Virus record (IMG/VR): IMGVR_UViG_3300047297_000194
Location: 1-38,650 of that record
Direction: 5' to 3' (one strand)
Source: a virus
Length of the DNA: 38,650 nucleotides
Below the pieces are notes generated by a model that was given only the letters and a program-made list of their open reading frames with translations, made no database searches and was not told the origin of the DNA. Below, one piece after another: positions 2,538 to 37,109 of this stretch (within the stretch, counting starts at the first letter, position 1; each line of letters opens with the position of its first letter). A program made the position numbers and the translations under genes.

Positions 2538-3191
2538 ATGGCCACTGCGATGACATTCACAACGTTGAAACAAGACGTGCAGCGCTACCTTGAGCGCGGC
2601 AACACGCTTGCGTCCGACCCGATTGTCTTTGAGCAAATCCCTCGTCTAATCAACCTCGCCGAGCGTCGCATCGCCCGCGAGCTAAAGATTGAAGGCTTCA
2701 TCAACGTCGTGACTGGTACGCTCTCTGCGGGTCAGTCTGTCTACCCAAAGCCTGATCGCTGGCGCGATACGGTGTCGATGAGCATCGGCACTGGCGCGAC
2801 GTTGGAAAACCGCAAAGTCTTGTTCGCCCGTGTGTACGAGTATCTGCGCTCATACTGGCCGAACGCACTGGAGACGGACACGCCTCTGTTCTACAGCGAC
2901 TATGACTACAGCCACTGGCTGCTTGCGCCGACACCGGACGCAGAATATCCATTCGAAATCCTGTATTACGAACTGCCACCATTGCTCGACGAGAGCGTGC
3001 AGACGAACTGGATTACAGAATACGCCCCGCAGCTCTTGCTTTATGGCACGCTGGTTGAGGCAACGCCGTTCCTCAAGAACGACGAACGCATCCCAGTTTG
3101 GCAGAGCATGTATGATCGCGCGGCGGCAATGTTGAACGGCGAAGACCTCGCCAAAATCTTAGACCGATCCGCCGTGCGCAAGGAGGCGTAA
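2538..3191 (+). CDS. Head-completion adaptor, SU10-like
   Basis: 217 aa. It begins MTFTTLKQDVQRYLERG and contains IPRLINLAERRIARELK, a helix-rich start typical of podovirus adaptor proteins. A beta-rich middle follows (YPKPDRWRDTVSM) and then LYYELPPLLDESVQTNWITEYAPQ, where the YY.LPPL and TNW..YAP..LL.G.L.EA pattern is characteristic of the SU10-type adaptor family. Such proteins form the ring joining portal to tail. The start has a GGGG site ten bases upstream and follows the hairpin at 2476. Its stop is followed at once by the tail fibre gene, whose AAGGAGG site lies inside this gene's last codons. The family call is from recalled motif resemblance, not a search. Confidence 0.78.
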   Translation: MATAMTFTTLKQDVQRYLERGNTLASDPIVFEQIPRLINLAERRIARELKIEGFINVVTGTLSAGQSVYPKPDRWRDTVSMSIGTGATLENRKVLFARVYEYLRSYWPNALETDTPLFYSDYDYSHWLLAPTPDAEYPFEILYYELPPLLDESVQTNWITEYAPQLLLYGTLVEATPFLKNDERIPVWQSMYDRAAAMLNGEDLAKILDRSAVRKEA

Positions 3192-3193
3192 TA

Positions 3194-5905
3194 ATGTCCA
3201 CGTCATTCACTCAAGTCTTCGGCGGTACGACGATTTACCCCTCAGACGTATCGTATCTCGCCCTCGCGCTGACCACCGACATCGTCCTTGAGTGGCCGCT
3301 TGAGGCCACCACCGGCAATAATGTCGTCGCACGCATCATCGACATCACGCCAACTGGCCCGTACACGATAGCACTACCCGACGCGATGTCTGTCGGCCTC
3401 GGCCAGACAATCCTGTTCAACAACCTCGGCCCCGACACAATCACGGTCGATAACGCCGCCGGTAACGCAATCCTGAGCATCGGCGCGGGCGAGCAGTGGC
3501 AGGCGTATCTCATCAGCAACACCACTGTCGGTGGTGTCTGGCGCACGTTCCGTTACGGCGCGGCTACCGCACAGGCTCAAGCCGCAGCACTGGCTGGCGC
3601 TGGTTTGGTCGCAGACGGCTCGGAACTCGCGCAGAATTACGAGGTCATCGACTTCTCCATCACGCCCTACACCCTGACCGCGCCTGACCGCGCAAGGGTC
3701 TTTGTCTGGGGCGGCGGTCTCGGCACGTTGAACTTGCCGACTGCCGTTGCCGCTGGCGATGGCTGGTTCGTGCAAGTCCGCAACGGCGGACAGGGCGACT
3801 TGACTGTCGATCCGTCTGGCACCGAGCTTATCAACGCCGCGTCCACGCTGCGCTTGCAGCCGGGCGACAGCGCCGTGATCGTAAGCGACGGCGTGCAGTG
3901 GTACACCATCGGCCTCGGCCAGCAGGCGGTCTTCGCTTTCGACTATACGAGTATCGCCGTCACTGGTGGCACGTACACGCTCGCTGGTTCCGAGCTGAAC
4001 CGCATCGCGTACAAGTTCACAGGCACACTGGCGTCTAACGCCAACATCGTTGTGCCCGCAACGGTGCAGCAATACTGGGTGAACAACGCCACGACTGGCG
4101 CGTTTACGCTCGGCGTAAAAACGGCCAGTGGCACGGCCACTCTGGTCGCACAGGGCGAGACTGCTATCCTGTATTGCGACGGCACGGAAATCATCTCCGC
4201 GACCACATCGTCCCCGTTTGCGGGCGTCCTCTCGGTGTCGCAGGGCGGCACAGGCGCGAGTAACGCACCGTCGGCCCTGACCAACCTCGGCGGCACGGGC
4301 ATCGGCACCGCCGTCTTCACCGCATCCACAACGGCTGCTGCCCGCTCCGCCATCGCGGCGGCTGCCTCTGGCGCGAACAGCGACATCACCTCGCTGTCGG
4401 GTCTCACAACAGCTTTGAGTGTTGCTCAGGGCGGCACAGGCTCCACGACAGCCGCAGGCGCACGCTCTAACCTCAGCGCGGCCCAGTCGGGCAGCAACGC
4501 GGACATCACTGCGCTGACTGCCTCTGGCGGTGTGCAGGTCGGCGCACCGACAGGTGGCGCACAGGGTACGGGCACAATCAACGCGACGGGCCTCTTCATT
4601 AACGGCGTGGGCGTCGGCACGGGTTCAGGCTCGGTGACGAGCGTCGCGCTGACCGTCCCTTCGTTCCTGTCCGTGACCGGCTCTCCAATCACGACGTCAG
4701 GCACGCTGGCCGTGTCCCTGTCGGGCACTGCGCTTCCTGTCGCTAACGGCGGCACAGGCCAAACGACATATACCGATGGGCAGTTGCTCATCGGCAACAG
4801 CACAGGCAACACGCTCACGAAGGCGACCCTGACGGCGGGATCGGGCATTACCATCACGAACAGCGCGGGCGGCATCACCATCGCGTCTACCGCTGGCGGT
4901 GGTTCGGTTACGTCGGTCGCCGCGTCGGGAGGCACGACAGGTCTCTCCTTCACCGGCTCACCAATCACAACTTCGGGCACGCTGACACTCGGCGGAACGC
5001 TCGCGATAGCGTCCGGAGGCACCGGCGCGACTAGTGCCTCCGGCGCGAGGCTTAACCTCGGTGCGGCTGGCTCTGGCGCAAACTCCGACATCACATCGTT
5101 GGTTGGTCTCACCACCGCTCTGTCCATCGGACAAGGCGGCACCGGCGCGACTGACGCCGCAACGGCGCGCGCCAACCTCGGCGCGGGGACGGGCAACGGC
5201 ACTGTCACCTCTGTCAGTGGTACAGGCTCGGTAAACGGCATCACGCTCACCGGCACGGTCACATCGTCTGGCTCGCTCACCCTCGGTGGCACGCTGTCTG
5301 GCGTCAGCCTCACAACGCAAGTCAGCGGCACTCTGCCTGTCGCCAACGGCGGTACAGGCGCGACATCCGCAGCGGCGGCATTGTCGTCTCTCGGCGCTTA
5401 CCCCGCGAGCAACCCGTCAGGCTTTACGAGTAATACTGGCACCGTCACTTCGGTCTCTGGCTCAGGGGGCACAACGGGCCTCACCCTGACCGGTGGCGCA
5501 ATCACGACGTCGGGAACGCTGACGCTCGGCGGCACACTCGCCGTTGCCAACGGCGGTACAGGCGCAACCGATGCGGCAACTGCTCGATCTAACCTTAGCG
5601 TTCCGTCGGCTACTGGTTCCGGCGCGTCGGGCACTTGGAACATAAGCATCAGCGGCAACGCGGCGACTGCCACATCAGCAACGTCGGCTACAACAGCTAC
5701 CAGCGCCACGAACGCTACCAATGCGACGAATGCTACCAACGCGACGAATGCAACAAACGCAGCCAATCTCGTCACGACCAACTTCTCCATCGTGGAGAGC
5801 GGAGGCTATCTGTACGTTAAGTACGGCGCGGCCACCATCGTGCGGATTGACAGCACCGGAAACATCATCGCCGAAGGTGACGTCACAGCCTTTGGGAGCA
5901 TCTAA
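3194..5905 (+). CDS. Repetitive tail fibre protein
   Basis: 903 aa. The N-terminus (FGGTTIYPSDVSYLALALT) matches the virion-attachment region seen in many marine podovirus tail fibres. From about residue 345 the protein carries seven GGTG repeats of the form V(A/S)(Q/N)GGTGATxAAxARxNL, interspersed with TSVSGSGGTTGL and SGTLTLGGTL beta-repeats. These are typical of trimeric fibre shafts. Near the C-terminus is a low-complexity threonine-asparagine-alanine run (TATSATS then repeated NAT) followed by a small terminal domain (YLYVKYGAATIVRIDSTGN). It probably contacts the host surface. The gene overlaps the next start by one base. The repeats are prone to recombination and could mislead assembly. 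Confidence 0.9.
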   Translation: MSTSFTQVFGGTTIYPSDVSYLALALTTDIVLEWPLEATTGNNVVARIIDITPTGPYTIALPDAMSVGLGQTILFNNLGPDTITVDNAAGNAILSIGAGEQWQAYLISNTTVGGVWRTFRYGAATAQAQAAALAGAGLVADGSELAQNYEVIDFSITPYTLTAPDRARVFVWGGGLGTLNLPTAVAAGDGWFVQVRNGGQGDLTVDPSGTELINAASTLRLQPGDSAVIVSDGVQWYTIGLGQQAVFAFDYTSIAVTGGTYTLAGSELNRIAYKFTGTLASNANIVVPATVQQYWVNNATTGAFTLGVKTASGTATLVAQGETAILYCDGTEIISATTSSPFAGVLSVSQGGTGASNAPSALTNLGGTGIGTAVFTASTTAAARSAIAAAASGANSDITSLSGLTTALSVAQGGTGSTTAAGARSNLSAAQSGSNADITALTASGGVQVGAPTGGAQGTGTINATGLFINGVGVGTGSGSVTSVALTVPSFLSVTGSPITTSGTLAVSLSGTALPVANGGTGQTTYTDGQLLIGNSTGNTLTKATLTAGSGITITNSAGGITIASTAGGGSVTSVAASGGTTGLSFTGSPITTSGTLTLGGTLAIASGGTGATSASGARLNLGAAGSGANSDITSLVGLTTALSIGQGGTGATDAATARANLGAGTGNGTVTSVSGTGSVNGITLTGTVTSSGSLTLGGTLSGVSLTTQVSGTLPVANGGTGATSAAAALSSLGAYPASNPSGFTSNTGTVTSVSGSGGTTGLTLTGGAITTSGTLTLGGTLAVANGGTGATDAATARSNLSVPSATGSGASGTWNISISGNAATATSATSATTATSATNATNATNATNATNATNAANLVTTNFSIVESGGYLYVKYGAATIVRIDSTGNIIAEGDVTAFGSI

Positions 5906-8249: not shown

Positions 8250-8482
8250 TCGACCCACGCGGCATGACTTGGCAAGACTGGGCCTCCTCGGTTATATTGT
8301 CCGTCAACGACGCGTGGTCGTTCGGGTCACCGCCCGAAGAGGCCGAGTGGCAGGGTTGGGCTATAGGGCTGTTGCGTGCCTCGCCATTTACGCAACAAAT
8401 TATTCCCGACCCATACCAGTTCTCGGATTGGCGTGAGTGGGGAATGCGTGTATATCCGATGCTCGAAGGTAAAAGCTCATGA
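8246..8482 (+). CDS. Small conserved tail-region protein (DPRxxTWQDWA type)
   Basis: 78 aa, rich in tryptophan. The MIDPRGMTWQDWASSV start and the DPYQFSDWREWGMRV motif near the end match a small protein that regularly follows the nozzle-like gene in environmental podoviruses. No enzyme motif or membrane segment is visible. The ATGA at 8246 overlaps the preceding stop, and its own stop overlaps the next ATG, so it is translationally coupled both ways. A small structural or assembly role is likely from position only. Confidence 0.75.
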   Translation: MIDPRGMTWQDWASSVILSVNDAWSFGSPPEEAEWQGWAIGLLRASPFTQQIIPDPYQFSDWREWGMRVYPMLEGKSS

Positions 8483-10938
8483 ACTACATCCCCGGCTTCA
8501 GTAATCATCTGCAAACGTCCGTGCCGCGCTACGCTATAGGCGGACGTGTAATGGATGACGAGCGCATGATGTACAGGAACGAGCCGATGTTCGGCGACGA
8601 ATACAACATGTTCGGCGGCGAGATGATGCTCCCGCCCATGGATCAGTACGCGCAGCCGATGATGTACGGTGACCCTATGGCGGCTGCCGCGCCGGTAATG
8701 GACACGTACCAGCAAGCGGCGGTTGAGCCGGTGACGCAAGAGGTTGCGCCTGCCGAAGTGCCGTTCGATCCGAGTACGTTTGACTTTAGCGGTTTGGATC
8801 TGAGCGGCCTCGACAGCCTGTATGGGATGAACTTCGGCTCGAACTTCGGTGGCGGCCCAATGGGTGGCATATACCAAGCCGATCCAAACATACAATATAT
8901 CGGCGCGCCGAAGTCTAACAAAGGCAACGCCACCTCGCAGACGGGCGGCAACACGTTCGCGGTGCGGGCTGACCAGCCCGTGCGCCTCGTTGACCATCGC
9001 ACCAACCAGATCGTGTTCGAAGGGACAGGCTTTGACGCCGCGCGCAAGGCAACTGAGTTGGGTCAAGGCCTGACGAACCAGTTTGGCCGCAAGGCGAACT
9101 ACAGCATCCAAACCGCAGACCCGACGGGCAACTATTCGACCGTCGCGTACGAGAAGAAGAACAAGAGCACGCTGGGCAAGATTGCTGGTGCGGTCGGGAC
9201 GGCGTTGCCATTGGCGACGATGTTCATACCGGGCTTGAACGTCCTTGGCACCATCGCCGCTGGGGCTGGTCTTGGCGGCGCAGGTGCGGCGCTTAGGGGT
9301 GACGATATCCTTAAAGGCGTAGCTATGGGTGGCCTGAGCGCTGCGGGCGGTCAAGTACTCGGCCCTGCACTGGAAGCTGGGGGTAAATTCGGCACCGCTT
9401 TAGCTCCAAAACTCGCCACTGCTGTAGGTACGGGCATCGGCTCAACCGCAGGCGGCTTGGTTACTGGGCAAGACCTAAAGAGTTCTCTTCTCAGCGGTGT
9501 GGCTTCTGGCGCGCTTAGTTACGTAGCGCCCACCATAGCCAACGAGCTAGGTATTAAACCGATAAACCTTAACGGCACCAAGGGTACGTCCGGTTCGAGT
9601 GGTATGACCGCCGACGGCGGTCTACAGGTGACTGCGTCTACTTTAGGTACGCCAAGCATAGGCTACACTCTTGGTGGCTCAAGCCCCTCGAAACTGAAGC
9701 TGCCTGAAACAACGGGGCCTGAAACCCCGTATGACGGTCTCTCCGTCACCGGCAGCAGGCTCGGCGGTTTGTCGGCTGTTAACCTTGGAGGCAACCAGTT
9801 CGGCGCGCCCGGAGAAGATGTATCCGCGTTCGACCGACTGACCGACACCGCTGACCCCAACGAGGTTGTTGTAGACGCCACTACGAGGACTACTCCCGTT
9901 TCCGGCGGTTTTACTCTATCGCCTGACGTACTCGCCGGAATAGCTGAATTTGAGAAGAACCCTATTATCTCTGAAGGCTCTAAAATTGAACAGCCTACCG
10001 GCGGTCTTACTCTATCGCCTGACGTACTCGCCGGAATAGCTGAATTTGAGAAGAACCCTATTATCTCTGAAGGCTCTAAAATTGAACAGCCTACCGGCGG
10101 TCTTACTGTAGCACAGAACCCAGTCGTAGATGGCGTCGATCAGGTAACCAAAGAAATCGTCGCAACAGCACCTAAAGTAGAACAGCCTACGACCGCAGTA
10201 CCTGCCGCTGGCGATGGCTTTAGGCTTGAGCCTGAAGTGCTTTCTGAAGTGGATAAGCTGTCTGAAGCTGAAAAAGAAGGTAAAAAGGATAGGAAGCTCG
10301 GCCTTGAAGAGTACCTGCGCATCGCGGGTCTTCTCTCCGGCTTAGTCGGCGGTGCTGCTGGCGGAGGCCAAGGCCAAACCGGCACATACGGCGGTGGCGG
10401 CACTGGCCGCTTGAACCCGATATTCTCGGCCAAGCTGCCAACCGCAGGCGGCCTCGGCTCGGTCGGCGTGAACCGCACCGTGCGTCCGATGGGCGACGTA
10501 GACTGGCTGACATACGGCCAGCGGCCTGAACTTAACTTCTACGACTATGCGGCGCGATCCAACCCCGCGCCTGTCACCACGCCCGTACCGAACAACCCCG
10601 CTGGCCCGTCAATGTACGTGCCTGACAACATGCGTTTTGCCGAAGGCGGCGCATTCGCTGCGAAGCGCGGAGGCCCGTCGCAGCGCACGGAATTTGCCGT
10701 CAACGGCCCCGGCACTGGACGCAGTGACGACATCCCTGCGGTGTTGTCCGACGGTGAATATGTCATCGACGCTGAGACTGTCGCTCTGCTGGGTGACGGG
10801 TCGAGCAAGGCTGGCGCAAAGAAATTAGATGAACTTCGCGTGAAAGTTCGTAAACACAAGGGTCAGAAGTTGGCAAAGGGCCGTTTTAGTGCTAATGCCA
10901 AGAAGCCCGAAGCATATCTGTCTGGAGGACGCATTTAA
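8479..10938 (+). CDS. Large putative internal virion / ejection protein
   Basis: 819 aa. The N-terminus is methionine-rich (IGGRVMDDERMMYRNEPMFG, then MMLPPMDQYAQPMMYGD). A long glycine/alanine hydrophobic stretch (about residues 233-330) could insert in membranes. The C-terminus carries GTGRSDDIPAVLSDGEYVID (about 745-764) and AETVALLGDGSSKAGAKKLD, a module shared by many phage virion proteins next to a basic tail. Two perfect 96-bp units lie at 9913-10104 (32 residues each, beginning LSPDVLAGIAEFEKNP). The segment around them is visibly more AT-rich in codon choice than its flanks, suggesting a recent insertion or duplication. Ejection into the host is inferred from size, composition and neighbours. 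Confidence 0.72.
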   Translation: MNYIPGFSNHLQTSVPRYAIGGRVMDDERMMYRNEPMFGDEYNMFGGEMMLPPMDQYAQPMMYGDPMAAAAPVMDTYQQAAVEPVTQEVAPAEVPFDPSTFDFSGLDLSGLDSLYGMNFGSNFGGGPMGGIYQADPNIQYIGAPKSNKGNATSQTGGNTFAVRADQPVRLVDHRTNQIVFEGTGFDAARKATELGQGLTNQFGRKANYSIQTADPTGNYSTVAYEKKNKSTLGKIAGAVGTALPLATMFIPGLNVLGTIAAGAGLGGAGAALRGDDILKGVAMGGLSAAGGQVLGPALEAGGKFGTALAPKLATAVGTGIGSTAGGLVTGQDLKSSLLSGVASGALSYVAPTIANELGIKPINLNGTKGTSGSSGMTADGGLQVTASTLGTPSIGYTLGGSSPSKLKLPETTGPETPYDGLSVTGSRLGGLSAVNLGGNQFGAPGEDVSAFDRLTDTADPNEVVVDATTRTTPVSGGFTLSPDVLAGIAEFEKNPIISEGSKIEQPTGGLTLSPDVLAGIAEFEKNPIISEGSKIEQPTGGLTVAQNPVVDGVDQVTKEIVATAPKVEQPTTAVPAAGDGFRLEPEVLSEVDKLSEAEKEGKKDRKLGLEEYLRIAGLLSGLVGGAAGGGQGQTGTYGGGGTGRLNPIFSAKLPTAGGLGSVGVNRTVRPMGDVDWLTYGQRPELNFYDYAARSNPAPVTTPVPNNPAGPSMYVPDNMRFAEGGAFAAKRGGPSQRTEFAVNGPGTGRSDDIPAVLSDGEYVIDAETVALLGDGSSKAGAKKLDELRVKVRKHKGQKLAKGRFSANAKKPEAYLSGGRI
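9913..10104 (+). repeat. Perfect 96-bp tandem duplication inside the 819-aa virion gene
   Basis: Units 9913-10008 and 10009-10104 are identical base for base and stay in frame, adding one 32-residue repeat. Each unit starts ACTCTATCGCCTGACGTACT and ends ACCGGCGGTCTT. The sequence before unit 1 (GGCGGTTTT) differs from the unit end by one base, and a third copy begins (ACT) but diverges at once. Absence of any silent difference implies a very recent event or ongoing slippage. Confidence 0.95.
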
Positions 10939-28760: not shown

Positions 28761-30844
28761 TAAATGCAAAAAATTACATGTCCGTTCTTTATTTCTATCG
28801 GCGGGTCTTTGCGCTTGGCCAGCGACTGTATCGCACGGTCCAAATCGCGGCGGCGCAGGTCGCGCTTCGGCGGCTCTGGCTTTGTCATGGCGGCCAAGCA
28901 CTTGTCGAACAGCTCGGACAGTGGCGCACGCTCAACGCCCTCATACTCGCTTTCGATGATTTCAAGCACGTGACGCTCCTTCGGACCAAAGCGCTGGGCC
29001 TTGGGGCCGATTTCTTGCGGCACTGCGACAGGCACGTCGGCCTCAACGGCAACGCAGCTCGTGACAGGATCGCCGTCGGCGTCCATACCCACGACAATAG
29101 TCTCCAAGCGGAAGCCCCACTTCAGGCCGTCATCGCCGTCCTTCATCTTCGCAATGCGAAGCTCGCGGGTGCCGTTCTCGTGCTTCAATACCTCAAGCAC
29201 GGCGTCCGCCGCTGCGAACTTACCCGACCAACCGCGCACGCCCTTCGACGCGTCCTTGCCGCTGTGGTCCACCGCCAAGATCGTTGCGCCTGTGGCCATC
29301 TCCAGCGCGCGGGCGTTGCCCAGCGCCAGACCGACATCCTCGGAGCTGTTCTCGTTCGCGCCGGGCGTCACCTGCGCAAAGGTATCCACGATGATGACGT
29401 CCGCGCCGCCCGATGCGGCGACAGCCGCAGCCAACTCGGTCACGTCCTCGGACAGCAGGAAGTTCGGCGGCACGGTCAGCAGACCGATGTCGGCGTCGTT
29501 CGGGTCAATCTTGTGATACTTCAAATAGGCTTTGAGACGCTTGCTCATGCCCTTGCCGCCCTCGGCGGCGATGATTAGCACGCGGCCCTTCTTTACGCGG
29601 TTGCCCCGCCACTGGACACCCATCGCGATGGCGTAGGCTAAGTCGATTGCGACAAAGGTCTTGCCTGAGCCTGACGCGCCGAACAGCACAATCAGGCCCG
29701 CGTCGGGCAGCACGTTCTTAACGAGCCAGCCGCCCGGCTCCATCATGATGCTGACGGCCAGCGATGTAATCGGGAAGCGGCCAGTATAGTCTTCGGGCGT
29801 GAACATGCCCAAGGCAGGCGTGGCGGCAACCGCGCTCATTGCTGTGCGCAAGTCGTCAACAGTTGCCGCCAAGGTGGGGCGCGGGGTGGATGGTGCGCCA
29901 GCCTCCTTTGCCATCTTGAGAACGGTCGCCATGGTCACCTGACGGTGGCCCGAACCCTTGCGGCGTTCGAAGCTCTCCCACTGCGTCCGTAAACCTTCTT
30001 CGCTCGGATACTTCGACCCTTCCGAAGACCAGTCATTCCAGATCTCGAAGCCGGTGTCGTCGCCGTCGCACTCGTGATGTAGCGCCATGCCGACCCTGAT
30101 CCAGTCTTCGCGCGGCATGTCCGCGTCGAGCACAGCAAGCAGCTCTTCCATTTGCGCCACGGACAGGCCAATCTTCGGCTCACGCCCGACCATGAAGTCG
30201 TCAGGGTCAACCTCGCGCTCCTGCGTTGCGGCAAAGCGGGCCGCGCATAGCGGCGCGACCAGCGCATCCAGATCTGCGATAGTGTCCTCAAGGCCGAGCA
30301 GGTCGGTGTACGGCATGGCGTTGCCGGTGAAAGTCACGAAGCCATTGCTGGTGAAGGTTTCTAAGCCGTAGGGGTTGCCCTCGCTCGGCGACTTACGATT
30401 GCCGTAGGAGCCACGCACGAAGGCACGGATACCCATGCCGCTGGGCGAGTACTCGGCGTAGGTCTGGCTGGCAATCTGCTCAATCTCTGGCGGCAGCTTG
30501 CCCTGCGCATCGACGCAGTTGTCGAAGTCAAGCGCAGTGATGCCGAACTCTGGCATGAGCGCCAGACCCACGCCGGTGAAGCCACGCCGCGCAGCCGCGT
30601 CACGCGCAGCGGCGAAGGTCGTCATGCGTCCACGGTCATCTATACCACCCTGCTTGCCGTAGCGCTTGCCGCCGTCGGCATAGTAGGGCACTTTAAGCGG
30701 CTTGCCGTTGGGATTGTCTGGGTCTTGCTCGAACCGCCAAATCAGCCAGCCCTGTAGCTCCCGCAGCTCGGCAGGTGCCATCACGGTCGTATTGTGTGGT
30801 GTAATTGGTTGCACATTGCCCACAGGCGGTCCCTCCTCGCTCAT
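28760..30844 (-). CDS. Primase-helicase: PrimPol-like, PriCT-2 and RecA-like ATPase domains
   Basis: 694 aa from the ATG at 30844; an upstream in-frame start at 30910 would overlap the repressor gene. No clear site precedes either. Order: PrimPol-like domain with GITALDFDNCVDA (about 101-113, the acidic pair) and SPSGMGIRAFVRG (133-145). Then a PriCT-2-like helical domain (228-313, EDWIRVGMALHHECDGDD, TMATVLKMAKEAG). Then a RecA-like domain with Walker A GASGSGKT (389-396), LIIAAEGGKGMSKRL, Walker B DVIIVDTF and AVDHSGKDASKGVRG. It ends in a helical wing. It should prime synthesis and unwind DNA for the phage Pol A. No zinc ribbon is seen. Confidence 0.88.
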   Translation of the reverse strand: MSEEGPPVGNVQPITPHNTTVMAPAELRELQGWLIWRFEQDPDNPNGKPLKVPYYADGGKRYGKQGGIDDRGRMTTFAAARDAAARRGFTGVGLALMPEFGITALDFDNCVDAQGKLPPEIEQIASQTYAEYSPSGMGIRAFVRGSYGNRKSPSEGNPYGLETFTSNGFVTFTGNAMPYTDLLGLEDTIADLDALVAPLCAARFAATQEREVDPDDFMVGREPKIGLSVAQMEELLAVLDADMPREDWIRVGMALHHECDGDDTGFEIWNDWSSEGSKYPSEEGLRTQWESFERRKGSGHRQVTMATVLKMAKEAGAPSTPRPTLAATVDDLRTAMSAVAATPALGMFTPEDYTGRFPITSLAVSIMMEPGGWLVKNVLPDAGLIVLFGASGSGKTFVAIDLAYAIAMGVQWRGNRVKKGRVLIIAAEGGKGMSKRLKAYLKYHKIDPNDADIGLLTVPPNFLLSEDVTELAAAVAASGGADVIIVDTFAQVTPGANENSSEDVGLALGNARALEMATGATILAVDHSGKDASKGVRGWSGKFAAADAVLEVLKHENGTRELRIAKMKDGDDGLKWGFRLETIVVGMDADGDPVTSCVAVEADVPVAVPQEIGPKAQRFGPKERHVLEIIESEYEGVERAPLSELFDKCLAAMTKPEPPKRDLRRRDLDRAIQSLAKRKDPPIEIKNGHVIFCI

Positions 30845-31841: not shown

Positions 31842-33497
31842 TCAAATGATTGAGATGTAGTCGTCAACGACGCGGATGCGCTCGCCGATCCAGCGCATGA
31901 CCGGCACGGCCATGCTGTTTCCTAATGCCTTGTAGCGTGGGCCGTCTGGGCAATCTTCTGCGCCCTTCTTGCGCCACGGTATGGCGGTGAAGTTGTCGGG
32001 GAAGCCTTGCAGCCGCTCACACTCAACGGGCGTCAGACGGCGGACAGTTGACTGTTGCTGCGCAAACAGGCTGCCGTTCGTTGCACTGGCGTTGCCGTTC
32101 CACTTCGTGCCGTAGGCTGCGGTCAGGCAGTCTGCCGTTGGTTGGAAGGTTTGTGTAGGGACCATAACCCCGTCATGGCGACCGCCACTTCCGCCCCTTT
32201 GTATTGTGCCTGCTAGGTCCACGCTGGCAGTCAGTTCCTCTGACCAGCCAATCGCGGGTTCATACGCCACTGCATGGCTGTGGCCCGCTTGCAGCGTGTA
32301 CGCTGGGTCGTGCTCGCCACCGAGGCCCAACCCGTCACGGCTGGTGTTCGATACGTCGGGGCCGCGCAGACCGAGCTGCGTGTTTATGGGGTAAGCGGCC
32401 CCTTCGGAGAATATATGCTGGTCCTGATGGGTGCTTATGGTGAAGGCCACTTCGTCGGAACCCAAGTAGCCCTTGCCGCCACCCTCGCATCCGCCTCTGA
32501 CTTTAAACGCGTGTGCCGCGTCAATCGCCACTGCGGGTGGATTACCGCCGCCATGACCTCCCAGCTTCAATGTCGGTGTGCTTCCGTCTGTCTGGCAGTC
32601 CGGGGTGGACATATTGCTGCTGAACGCCACGATATGGTCGGTGTCGCTTTGAGTGCCAGCAGTGCCGGGGTGGTGGGCGCGTAGTGTGCCGACAACATCA
32701 GGTCCGCGGTCAATGCACGGGCTGCTGTCATAGCGCGCCGTCAGCGTCCGTGCAGTGCCGTCCTCGTTGAAGGTGCTGGTGACGACGTGGCCGCTCTCGA
32801 CAGCCTCCGTGCCGCGTGGCCCCTTGTGCATCCCCGCAGTCAGCGGCCCTGCTAAATCAGGTCGTGCCCCTCCGTTGCCGCCACTGCCTCCAGTGCCTGC
32901 TGCAACCGTTCCGGCAGCTTCTTGCCTCTTTTCTCGGCTCGGCGCAGGATGCCCTGACATGCTGTGGCGCTCAAAGAGAACCGCTGCGGCAGGACGCCAG
33001 TCTCCAAGGTATCCGACAACGAACACACGACGGCGTCTTTGGGCCACTCCGAAGTACTGAGCGTCAAGCACTCGGTAGGCGAGGCCATACCCGAGGTCTT
33101 CCAGCGCCCCGAGGATGGAACCAAAGTCCCGTCCTCCGTTCGATGACAGGACACCGGGGACATTTTCCCAGACAATCCAGCGAGGTTGCTCTCTTTGAGC
33201 AAGTCGGCAAAACTCAAGGGCGAGGTTACCACGGTCGTCGTCCAGACCGCCTCGCAATCCTGCGACACTGAATGACTGGCAGGGTGTTCCCCCGACGAGG
33301 AGGTCGATTTTTCCATATTCATTTTTCCTAATGGTCGTGAAGTCGCCGTGCAGCGGCACGTCGGGATAGTGGTGTTGAAGAACTGCGCAGGGAAACTTTT
33401 CAATCTCCGAAAAGAATGCAGCCTCCCAGCCCATATGATGCCATGCGGCGGTTGCAGCCTCGATGCCACTGCAAACTGATCCGTAGCGGAAAGTCAT
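31842..33497 (-). CDS. C5-cytosine DNA methyltransferase (Dcm type)
   Basis: 551 aa from the ATG at 33497, whose ATGA overlaps the upstream stop; the frame itself is open further upstream. Motif I FRYGSVCSGIEAATAAWH (3-20), motif IV GGTPCQSFSVAG (69-80) with catalytic Cys73, motif VI ENVPG (111-115), motif VIII QRRRRVFVVG (153-162), motif IX LTPVECERLQGFPDNF, motif X ALGNSMAVPVMRWIG. The span between VIII and IX is about 300 residues, longer than in small Dcm enzymes and rich in glycine and short GT..A segments; it includes the target-recognition region. All catalytic motifs are intact. No neighbouring restriction enzyme is seen, so it is probably a solitary methylase protecting phage DNA. 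Confidence 0.94.
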   Translation of the reverse strand: MTFRYGSVCSGIEAATAAWHHMGWEAAFFSEIEKFPCAVLQHHYPDVPLHGDFTTIRKNEYGKIDLLVGGTPCQSFSVAGLRGGLDDDRGNLALEFCRLAQREQPRWIVWENVPGVLSSNGGRDFGSILGALEDLGYGLAYRVLDAQYFGVAQRRRRVFVVGYLGDWRPAAAVLFERHSMSGHPAPSREKRQEAAGTVAAGTGGSGGNGGARPDLAGPLTAGMHKGPRGTEAVESGHVVTSTFNEDGTARTLTARYDSSPCIDRGPDVVGTLRAHHPGTAGTQSDTDHIVAFSSNMSTPDCQTDGSTPTLKLGGHGGGNPPAVAIDAAHAFKVRGGCEGGGKGYLGSDEVAFTISTHQDQHIFSEGAAYPINTQLGLRGPDVSNTSRDGLGLGGEHDPAYTLQAGHSHAVAYEPAIGWSEELTASVDLAGTIQRGGSGGRHDGVMVPTQTFQPTADCLTAAYGTKWNGNASATNGSLFAQQQSTVRRLTPVECERLQGFPDNFTAIPWRKKGAEDCPDGPRYKALGNSMAVPVMRWIGERIRVVDDYISII

Positions 33498-33802
33498 TTC
33501 GATAGGTTCCATTCTACTAAGCGCAACGTGCGCGGTGGCTCGCTGCGGACAGGCAGCGCAACGGTGTTCACGAACTTGATGCTGTGGGCGTACTCGATGG
33601 CGGCTGTCTGCTGTGCAGGCGTCATGGGGCCGTGCGTCCTGCCTGTGGCTAATATCGCGGCGCACAGGTTCTTAGACCCGAAGAAGGCGTCGGCGATGAT
33701 GTGGCGCATCTTCGGCTCAACGCCAATCGGCGATGTGTCTGGGCCGGTGGATGGCGTCTTGACCTTCTTGATGGTCGGCGAGATCTTGCGCTTCTTACGC
33801 AT
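33494..33802 (-). CDS. Basic hypothetical early protein
   Basis: 102 aa. The first 20 residues are strongly basic (MRKKRKISPTIKKVKT), suggesting nucleic-acid contact. The remainder includes IIADAFFGSKNLCAAILATG and PAQQTAAIEYAHSIKFVN. I do not recognise the family. The start overlaps the upstream stop and the gene overlaps the methyltransferase start by four bases. A role linked to the methyltransferase is possible only by position. Confidence 0.65.
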   Translation of the reverse strand: MRKKRKISPTIKKVKTPSTGPDTSPIGVEPKMRHIIADAFFGSKNLCAAILATGRTHGPMTPAQQTAAIEYAHSIKFVNTVALPVRSEPPRTLRLVEWNLSK

Positions 33803-35388: not shown

Positions 35389-35657
35389 GCTCCCACCCTT
35401 TCCTGTTGCTGGGTGTACTGGATGGAGAGAGCCTCGTCGAGCAGCTCCTCGCGCAGCACGCGCAGCGCAGCCAGTCGACCGAAGTGGGTGATGCGGTCGG
35501 CGATGAGGCGCTCACGCTCGCACATGTAGTCGCGTCCGTTCGGCGTGACCTGCTTGAGCGCCTCAATGGCGTCCATCAGGTGGTCCATCGCCTCGCGGCG
35601 CGGATCGATGAGTTCGGCGGCGCTGGAGCCGTTGGGGTTGAGTGTTGGTCTGATCAT
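35385..35657 (-). CDS. Small helical hypothetical protein behind cassette E
   Basis: 90 aa, helical throughout (REAMDHLMDAIEALKQVTPN, then RERLIADRITHFGRLAALRV and LREELLDEALSIQYTQQQER). It follows the leader GAACTAAGGGATTACCGAC, which is identical to that of the 84-aa gene at 36401. No TM segment or recognised family. Confidence 0.68.
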   Translation of the reverse strand: MIRPTLNPNGSSAAELIDPRREAMDHLMDAIEALKQVTPNGRDYMCERERLIADRITHFGRLAALRVLREELLDEALSIQYTQQQERVGA

Positions 35658-35676
35658 GTCGGTAATCCCTTAGTTC

Positions 35677-35725
35677 GTTGTTGGTCCGATTATCCATAAA
35701 CACATTAGAGGGTATTGCAACCCCC
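35677..35725 (-). promoter_or_regulatory. Promoter-leader cassette E
   Basis: On the minus strand: GGGGG-TTGCAA (35720-35715), 35 nt to ACCAACAAC (35685-35677), with GGATAAT in between as the best -10 candidate. Upstream is AT-rich. The interior contains TTATCCATA on the plus strand (35690-35698), one base from a consensus DnaA box. Heads the unit 35657 to 33795. Confidence 0.75.
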
Positions 35726-36146: not shown

Positions 36147-36401
36147 TTAAAAACGTACGCCGCGATTGCGGAACCAATCGGCGACAACCTTGTTGCCTTC
36201 GCCGCAAGCCAACAGATCACCAATGCTGGCCAGTGCCAGTGCGTTCCACTCTGCGCCGAAGTAATCATGGCCAGCGCGGCCTTGCTCGGCGAACGTATCG
36301 GAAGCGTTAGTCTCACCCGAACTGATCAGGCCTTCAACGGCCCAACGATTAGCGCGGCTCTTGATCTTGGCGGCTTGCTTGTAGAGGTCTGCAATGGTCA
36401 T
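36147..36401 (-). CDS. First gene of the leftward arm, hypothetical
   Basis: 84 aa. Helical basic start (MTIADLYKQAAKIKSRANRW), then VEGLISSGETNASDTFAEQG, and EWNALALASIGDLLACGEGN. No TM segment. It follows promoter cassette F with the site TAAGGGATTACCGAC, so it should be among the first phage genes expressed and could be a host-takeover protein. The family is not recognised. Confidence 0.68.
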   Translation of the reverse strand: MTIADLYKQAAKIKSRANRWAVEGLISSGETNASDTFAEQGRAGHDYFGAEWNALALASIGDLLACGEGNKVVADWFRNRGVRF

Positions 36402-36420
36402 GTCGGTAATCCCTTAGTTC

Positions 36421-36470
36421 GTTGTTGGTGTCACCAGCCTTAGACGATGTTTGAGGGTATGGTCAACCCC
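36421..36470 (-). promoter_or_regulatory. Promoter-leader cassette F
   Basis: On the minus strand: AGGGG-TTGACC (36466-36461), a possible -10 CTAAGG 17 bases on, then ACCAACAAC (36429-36421), 37 nt from TTG to ACC, preceded by an AT-rich block (AATTTTTTACGTGC) much like that of cassette B. This is the outermost copy and probably the first early promoter. Confidence 0.78.
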
Positions 36471-36605
36471 TGCACGTAAAAAATTACAAATAAATTTTTG
36501 GCGGTGTCTGCACCACGTGATTTGCCCTGCAATCAAAGCGTTTACACCATGTCCCACGAAGTCCCGTGGCGTCTAATGGTGCGCGGTGTATCCTGTACCA
36601 TCTGA

Positions 36606-36649
36606 CCCCAACCCACGGGGTATAGGTAGAACCTACCCGTGGTGTGGGG
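36606..36649. repeat. Long hairpin in the divergent region
   Basis: CCCCAACCCACGGG (36606-36619) pairs with CCCGTGGTGTGGGG (36636-36649) at 12 of 14 positions, and TAGGT (36623-36627) pairs with ACCTA (36631-36635) around a three-base loop. Together they form a nearly continuous 19-bp stem with a three-base bulge. It lacks a T tract on either side directly after the stem, so a terminator role is less likely than a structural or protein-binding one. Confidence 0.7.
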
Positions 36650-36768
36650 CAATGGGACACCCAAAAATTTTCGTGGGTGGTGCAGATCGAGATGGGTCAG
36701 TAAAAAGTCGAACACCACTCCGTACCATCACTCGCACCATCTGCTAATGGCGTGGTGCATATCGTATA

Positions 36769-36797
36769 TTGCGATCCGCATTGAACGTTGGTATTCC
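36769..36797 (+). promoter_or_regulatory. Candidate sigma70-type promoter for the terminase operon
   Basis: TTGCGA (36769-36774) and TATTCC (36792-36797) are spaced by exactly 17 bases and lie about 20 bases before the ATG at 36819. The -35 matches four of six consensus bases (TTGACA) and the -10 matches the first three (TATAAT). It is the best candidate upstream of the rightward genes. Confidence 0.4.
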
Positions 36798-36818
36798 TAA
36801 ATCACTAGGGGAATAGAA

Positions 36819-37109
36819 ATGACTGACAAAATGTACAAAGGAAAGAGACCTCGAACAGAGGGTTGGGTGCAAGTCGCCGTGATTGAGGGTGACGTGCGGT
36901 GGCTCATGTTCGTGAAGGACAACCCGAACAACGAATGGCTGACAGTGAAGCTCGCAGCGGATGGCCGGGTTCCGTTCAAGGCCAACTATTGGCTCGGCTG
37001 GAACGGGACGCGCTTTGCACAGCAGCAGGACGCGTTCGCGATCATGCAGCGCCGCCCTGAGTTACTTAGGGCAGTCGAGCGGCTGCTTGAAGGGTATAGT
37101 TTGCTGTAG
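36819..37109 (+). CDS. Hypothetical protein upstream of terminase
   Basis: 96 aa with AGGGGAA seven bases before the ATG. Beta-rich N-terminus (GWVQVAVIEGDVRWLMFVKD, then WLTVKLAADGRVPFKANYWL) and a helical end (AFAIMQRRPELLRAVERLLE). No enzyme motif. It is the first gene on the rightward side of the divergent region, 71 bp ahead of the terminase small subunit; that 71-bp gap shows no clear structure. The family is not recognised. Confidence 0.72.
   Translation: MTDKMYKGKRPRTEGWVQVAVIEGDVRWLMFVKDNPNNEWLTVKLAADGRVPFKANYWLGWNGTRFAQQQDAFAIMQRRPELLRAVERLLEGYSLL

Follow-up and report, generated by a model that had tools for sequence, protein, structure and literature searches.

A candidate phage replication origin whose short iteron word varies with the winged helix of the phage's own primase-helicase

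What is the role of the gene-free stretch that separates the divergent operons of this virus, and which protein reads its repeats? The window analysed here is the whole linear virus contig of 38,650 bases. Its gap, bounded by a leftward ATG at 36401 and a rightward ATG at 36819 (Table 1), separates the early operon, which runs leftward, from the terminase side, which runs rightward. The early module on the minus strand encodes an SNF2-type helicase, a family A DNA polymerase, a DUF2815/Enc34-type ssDNA-binding protein, a DUF2800 nuclease-like protein, a primase-helicase, a YdaS protein, a methyltransferase and a DnaA-domain protein, while structural genes occupy the plus strand and terminase genes the right end of the window. 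The methyltransferase gene (31842-33665) is of the C5-cytosine type, and cytosine methylation could affect words that contain C.

A sequence-only reading had described this stretch as a divergent, gene-free region with an A/T-rich part and an array of direct and inverted repeats, and each of these features was located at defined coordinates. Direct repeats include GTACCATC at 36595 and 36722 and ACCATCTG at 36597 and 36736; inverted repeats include 36606-36619/36636-36649, TCTGCACCAC/GTGGTGCAGA and a pair with 82% identity, TGCACCACGTGATTTGC/GCTAATGGCGTGGTGCA. Repetition exceeded that of dinucleotide shuffles, with 206 repeated 6-mers against 102.6 and 80 repeated 7-mers against 29.6 (0 of 200 shuffles as high in either case). 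The CACCA/TGGTG building block named in that reading belongs to real repeats, but the true word is broader and is best described, as a single word, by TGNMCCA. Eight copies of TG[ACT][AC]CCA fall in the region where 0.59 would be expected (0 of 300 simulated sequences), and elsewhere in the window the density is 0.18 per 347 bp. The three left copies face right and the five right copies face left, with a strong hairpin between them. The array is degenerate, and by raw score it does not rank first among the repeat clusters of the window; on sequence comparison, what makes it notable is that it is kept in relatives. The strongest direct 7-mer repetition of the window, at 9901-10300, is not intergenic and lies inside an 819-aa structural ORF (8479-10938).

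Table 1. Coordinates of the proposed origin, its elements and the proposed initiator gene in the window.
Feature	Position	Strand	Basis
Divergent region without genes, proposed replication origin	36402..36818		gene map, repeat statistics
Promoter-like element of the leftward early operon, TTGACC - 17 nt - weak -10	36438..36466	-	inferred from sequence
A/T tract, candidate duplex-unwinding element	36477..36499		composition, conservation
Iteron word TGCACCA, facing hairpin	36509..36515	+	word scan
Iteron word TGTCCCA	36550..36556	+	word scan
Iteron word TGTACCA	36594..36600	+	word scan
Central hairpin CCCCAACCCACGGG.../...CCCGTGGTGTGGGG	36606..36649		inverted repeat and fold
Iteron word TGCCCCA, overlaps hairpin arm	36645..36651	-	word scan
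Iteron word TGTCCCA	36653..36659	-	word scan
Iteron word TGCACCA	36678..36684	-	word scan
Iteron word TGACCCA	36693..36699	-	word scan
Iteron word TGCACCA	36753..36759	-	word scan
Primase-helicase, proposed initiator: PrimPol, PriCT_2, AAA_25 and C-terminal winged helix	28760..30844	-	profiles, AlphaFold2
C-terminal 100 residues, predicted winged helix (helices 27-39, 48-57, 70-82; wing 89-98)	28763..29062	-	AlphaFold2
Recognition helix LRRRDLDRAIQSLA, containing residues 662 (L) and 666 (D)	28817..28858	-	structure model, column ranking

Folding of 36585-36700 as single-stranded DNA gave -26.9 kcal/mol (z -3.56). The hairpin is kept, with changes on both sides in 4 of 11 pairs among seven sequences, which provides modest support for a conserved structure. 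To its left, GTAAAAAATTAC (36476-36487), in the A/T tract, is invariant in nine aligned sequences, comprising the window and eight relatives. The promoter-like element overlaps the left edge of the proposed origin, and relatives retain TTGAC/TTTAC and CCTCAAA. A 71-bp leader occurs twice with 80% identity, at 35656-35724 and 36400-36470, upstream of two early genes; it comprises a promoter-like sequence kept in relatives, a CCCTC spacer and the ribosome-binding region ACCAACAACGAACTAAGGGATTACCGACATG. In a scan for promoters and terminators, sites were no more numerous than in shuffles, and searches of the region against phage records and against Rfam returned no match. The cumulative GC-skew minimum falls at about 31-33 kb, a position that is confounded with gene direction; GC skew thus speaks neither for nor against an origin in this region.

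Relatives, fetched with the 96-aa protein encoded right of the region, share a common plan: promoter-like leader, A/T tract, words, GC-rich hairpin, words and gene. The sequence-only reading had staked its claim on conservation of the repeats in relatives, and it stood up to that check. What is conserved is the layout, with the word swapped as a set: TGCACCA and TG[AT]CCCA in the window's group, and TGCAGCA, TGCAACA or CGTAAC elsewhere. Replacement of a short word in every copy suggests that a partner protein changed along with it. The words converge on the hairpin (324 forward and 136 reverse on the left, 70 and 179 on the right), and same-strand spacing is 7-12 bp with a peak at 9 bp, near one helical turn. 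Overall, this comparison lends good support to the proposal of an origin at which an initiator would bind.

A larger set of loci, assembled by searching for the primase-helicase protein in viral contigs and bacterial genomes, linked the array to the helicase gene. Loci whose strongest array lay between -150 and +450 bp relative to the stop codon of the helicase gene made up 33 of the 71 genome loci, against about 3.5 expected, and 27 of the 37 viral loci, against an expectation of about 1.9. At the helicase start codon, used as a 5' control, the same test identified one genome locus and no viral locus. About half of the genome loci had no array behind the helicase gene at the threshold used. 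In longer loci, other words (TGTTCCA, TCCCACA) form arrays directly behind the primase-helicase gene. Distant relatives with an array directly behind a RepA-type (AAA_25) primase-helicase gene include prophages, phage-plasmids and cultured phages, with the words TGTATAA in Roseobacter CRP-821, CGGTACA in Idiomarinaceae 1N2-2, TGGTTCA in Alteromonas PB15, GGGGACA in Salicola CGphi29, AAAATAA in BcepGomr and GGTTCC in Curvibacter PCA1. Three plasmids, pMRAD08, Caenibius p1 and M. currus unnamed4, have the same layout. Unlike in many of these relatives, the window array lies about 5.5 kb from the helicase gene, and in window-like phages generally the proposed origin is 5-10 kb away from it.

Several further loci bear on how such arrays vary. 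A second repeat cluster (AATTGGC/AAATTGG, about 17 copies) lies at 2651-3050 of locus L082, some 800 bp from its TGCAGCA origin array. In Desulfovibrio piger (L201, ~9776-10400), 11 copies of CGGTACA and 9 of CGGGACA form neighbouring clusters behind one helicase gene, possibly reflecting two readers or a word in transition. A second helicase branch with the helix type PKRxxERA (L184, L191-L193, L195, L197-L200, L203, L204, L207, L208, L211 and L212) has arrays of GGGAA words (GCGGGAA, GTGGGAA, TCGGGAA, TGGGAAA), in which the flanking bases appear to vary along with the residues that follow PKR. No array was found behind the helicase gene in Microcystis Mae-JY30 or Mycobacterium Baka. Caulobacter phage RW (L324/L325, MK929790), the closest cultured relative by protein, encodes a full-length homologue with 49% identity, and an array was predicted for it from its helix (QN, hence TGCAAC). 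The prediction failed, as its 62-kb genome contained no detectable array; a divergent gap lies at 2720-3218. Either this phage has a different origin or the array was missed by the method.

Position also bears on the proposal that the array is a packaging site (cos or pac), with the repeats serving as sites for the terminase small subunit (TerS) and the hairpin marking the cut region. The gene terS is encoded just to the right, with the array about 360 bp upstream of it in window-like phages, and inverted repeats close to terS are a usual feature of cos regions. Against this, the arrays of most distant relatives sit directly behind the helicase gene, unlinked to terS, and across a common set of 64 rows helicase residue 662 was a better predictor of the word (adjusted mutual information, AMI, of 0.56) than the best TerS column (0.40). 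Repeats linked to and covarying with TerS were not found, TerS is an unlikely reader on this comparison, and we regard a packaging site as very improbable.

The link to the helicase gene directed attention to its product. The PrimPol part of the window protein is similar to PDB 7ola (DNA primase) and 6a9w (Primase), and the helicase part to REPA of RSF1010 (PDB 1g8y; profile match over 380-535, E 7e-8). Only AAA_25 and PriCT_2 were matched in Pfam, and a Pfam search with the last 100 residues gave no match. AlphaFold2 predicted a winged helix there (mean pLDDT 81.7; a full-length model was also made), for which Foldseek against the PDB returned generic winged-helix matches only, none at E <= 0.001.

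We examined covariation between protein and word at 82 loci, using 617 alignment columns of the whole primase-helicase and AMI with the word. The two columns that best predicted the word were residues 662 (AMI 0.55) and 666 (0.49), above the 99th percentile of 0.38, and both map to the beginning of the recognition helix. KRDTR[KR]QH occurs with TGCACC, KRDTR[KR]Q[RKLNV] with TGCAAC, KRDIRRQ[ST] with TGCAGC, and RDQR with TGCTAC, TGCTTC or TGTTCC. On a tree of the helicase core, from which the winged helix was left out, the word changed at least 21 times. Pairs on independent branches favoured H with TGCACC by 5:0 (two pairs undecided), I with TGCAGC by 4:0, and Q with T at base 4 by 2:0 (one undecided). 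Each pattern alone is too small for significance, and the pooled count of 11:0 comes from our own pooling of three pair tests on patterns seen in the data beforehand; the column ranking and the independent pairs served as guards against picking what fits. A raw count of columns changing more in different-word than in same-word pairs was uninformative because different-word pairs are more distant.

Individual loci illustrate both the rule and its exceptions. L285 and L266, from different parts of the tree, share an identical helix segment and an identical word. L107 and L120 approximate a natural swap, in that the 500 residues before the domain are 97.0% identical and the last 100 residues 81%, with the words TGCAAC and TGCAGC. 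L081 has TGCAGC with T rather than I at 662, L157 and L299 have I with TGCAAC, and L167 and L124 are exceptions to the H rule. In the window's clade, words drift while the recognition helix stays KRDLRRRDL. Across many related phages, word and reading domain change together like lock and key.

Covariation was also informative about whether the array is an operator, read by a YdaS/Cro-like or DnaA-domain regulator of the divergent early and late promoters. The setting suits an operator, as the region is a divergent promoter region and the array abuts the promoter-like leader. YdaS, moreover, is encoded beside the helicase, has a DNA-binding fold and has also diverged between L107 and L120 (66% identity), so that this pair, taken by itself, leaves both proteins as candidates. 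However, YdaS homologues were found at 46 of the 82 array-bearing loci, the best YdaS column (AMI 0.49) falls slightly below helicase residue 662 (0.55) in the same rows, and many arrays follow a gene instead of occupying a divergent promoter region. The DnaA-domain protein was found at 10 of the 82 loci, and no TTATNCACA-type DnaA box is present in 36402-36818; neither boxes in the region nor a DnaA-like protein conserved with the array, as a DnaA-dependent origin would have, was found. By these comparisons YdaS is an unlikely reader, though still conceivable in window-like phages, and the DnaA-like protein is not one. The 96-aa neighbour protein, considered as reader and rejected, was found at 10 of the 82 loci.

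The initiators named in the sequence-only reading, DnaA-like and YdaS-like proteins among them, were therefore mostly wrong. It is the primase-helicase that varies with the word, apparently through its C-terminal winged helix. As a main reading an operator array has little likelihood; a secondary regulatory role is possible given the adjoining early leader.

The array, its symmetry, its conservation, its link to the helicase gene family and the covariation of residues with the word were computed here. Considering these features, we judge that the region is very probably the replication origin of the phage, with the phage's own primase-helicase as initiator. Binding, melting, loading, priming and origin activity are steps that we infer, and they could proceed as follows. 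The C-terminal winged helix of each primase-helicase subunit would read one 7-bp TGNMCCA word. Iterons about one helical turn apart, facing the central hairpin from both sides, would assemble two opposed RepA-type hexamers; the facing words and their 7-12 bp spacing fit an arrangement in which each word takes one subunit and two rings oppose each other. The adjacent A/T tract would open, and loading of the rings would need no separate loader, so that two forks form. The fused PrimPol would then prime, possibly at the extruded hairpin, as the RSF1010 primase does at ssi hairpins.

Covariation speaks to recognition rather than to replication, and plasmid iterons often have a second, regulatory role. 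For the helicase, the chief purpose of reading the array might be repression of its own operon, or marking of the genome for partition or incompatibility, with replication starting elsewhere. The A/T tract, symmetric iterons and hairpin are instead features of origins, and in many loci the array lies downstream of the gene, where it cannot be a promoter operator for that gene. Related self-loading helicases also use such arrays as origins (PMC7581432). We consider repression or marking as the main function highly unlikely.

Turning to generality, self-loading initiator helicases with iterons are already known; the variant described here combines a RecA-type RepA helicase with PrimPol, an uncatalogued winged helix and a rapidly rewritten word. 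No description of this RepA/PrimPol/winged-helix variant was found in the literature, within open-licence papers. On balance we lean, with some reserve, toward an undescribed large class of phage, prophage and phage-plasmid replicons whose RepA-type helicases carry their own origin reader, in which residues 662 and 666 set mainly bases 4-5 of TGxxxCA, and in which repeated rewriting of this code makes related phages different 'replication compatibility' types.

These results suggest a simple rule for locating replication origins in many phages and prophages that lack annotated ones; they also name a likely initiator and predict the residues that set origin specificity. Most replicative helicases require a separate origin protein and a loader. 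If the proposal is true, a helicase of the RecA type that recognises its origin by itself would make initiation both minimal and portable. Given how often the word has been rewritten, whether co-infecting phages show replicon incompatibility also becomes a question open to experiment, and cultured phages such as Alteromonas phage PB15 and Roseobacter phage CRP-821 open the system to direct testing.

Four known systems offer points of comparison. Like the window protein, pRN1 ORF904 combines PrimPol, a helicase and a C-terminal winged helix, and its stem-loop origin lies just downstream of its gene (PMC4234260). ORF904 has an SF3 helicase and a large stem-loop without iterons, whereas in the window iterons flank the hairpin. 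The alpha protein of phage/satellite P4 has a Toprim primase and acts with ori iterons (PMC4234260). It resembles the window protein as proposed here in that a single polypeptide serves as primase, helicase and origin reader, and in its short iterons. P4 alpha differs in pairing its Toprim primase with an SF3 helicase, where the window protein has PrimPol and a RepA helicase.

RSF1010 (IncQ) has a RepA helicase, a RepB' primase and the iteron binder RepC, and its RepA works with iterons and with ssi hairpins as primer starts (PMC4234260). The window shares a homologous RepA-type helicase, assigned by its profile match to 1g8y and predicted to be a hexamer, together with iterons, hairpins and a primase. 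In RSF1010 these functions are divided among three proteins, of which RepC reads the iterons, whereas the window would have primase, helicase and proposed iteron reader in one polypeptide; no separate RepC iteron-binding protein was found among the early genes scanned.

Finally, an eLife 2020 paper citing Ubeda 2007 (PMC7581432) describes SaPI Rep and SCCmec Cch2 as using their C-terminal domains to bind iterons immediately downstream of the genes that encode them. These proteins show that an origin located behind a helicase gene can be used by the encoded helicase when it has a C-terminal iteron reader. The window protein similarly pairs a helicase (AAA_25) and a predicted C-terminal DNA-reading domain (the AlphaFold2 winged helix) with short iterons, matched to that domain here by covariation in the column ranking and independent pairs; the primase is fused or adjacent in these systems. 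An origin directly behind the gene is shared by many relatives, whereas the window array is some 5.5 kb away. The SaPI Rep and Cch2 helicases belong to DUF927 or D5/Primase_Cterm, while the window protein has a RecA-type RepA helicase and a winged helix not in Pfam. Because only AAA_25 and PriCT_2 were recognised and the helicase matches RepA, the window protein falls outside the SaPI Rep protein family, yet by these comparisons it appears to work like SaPI Rep.
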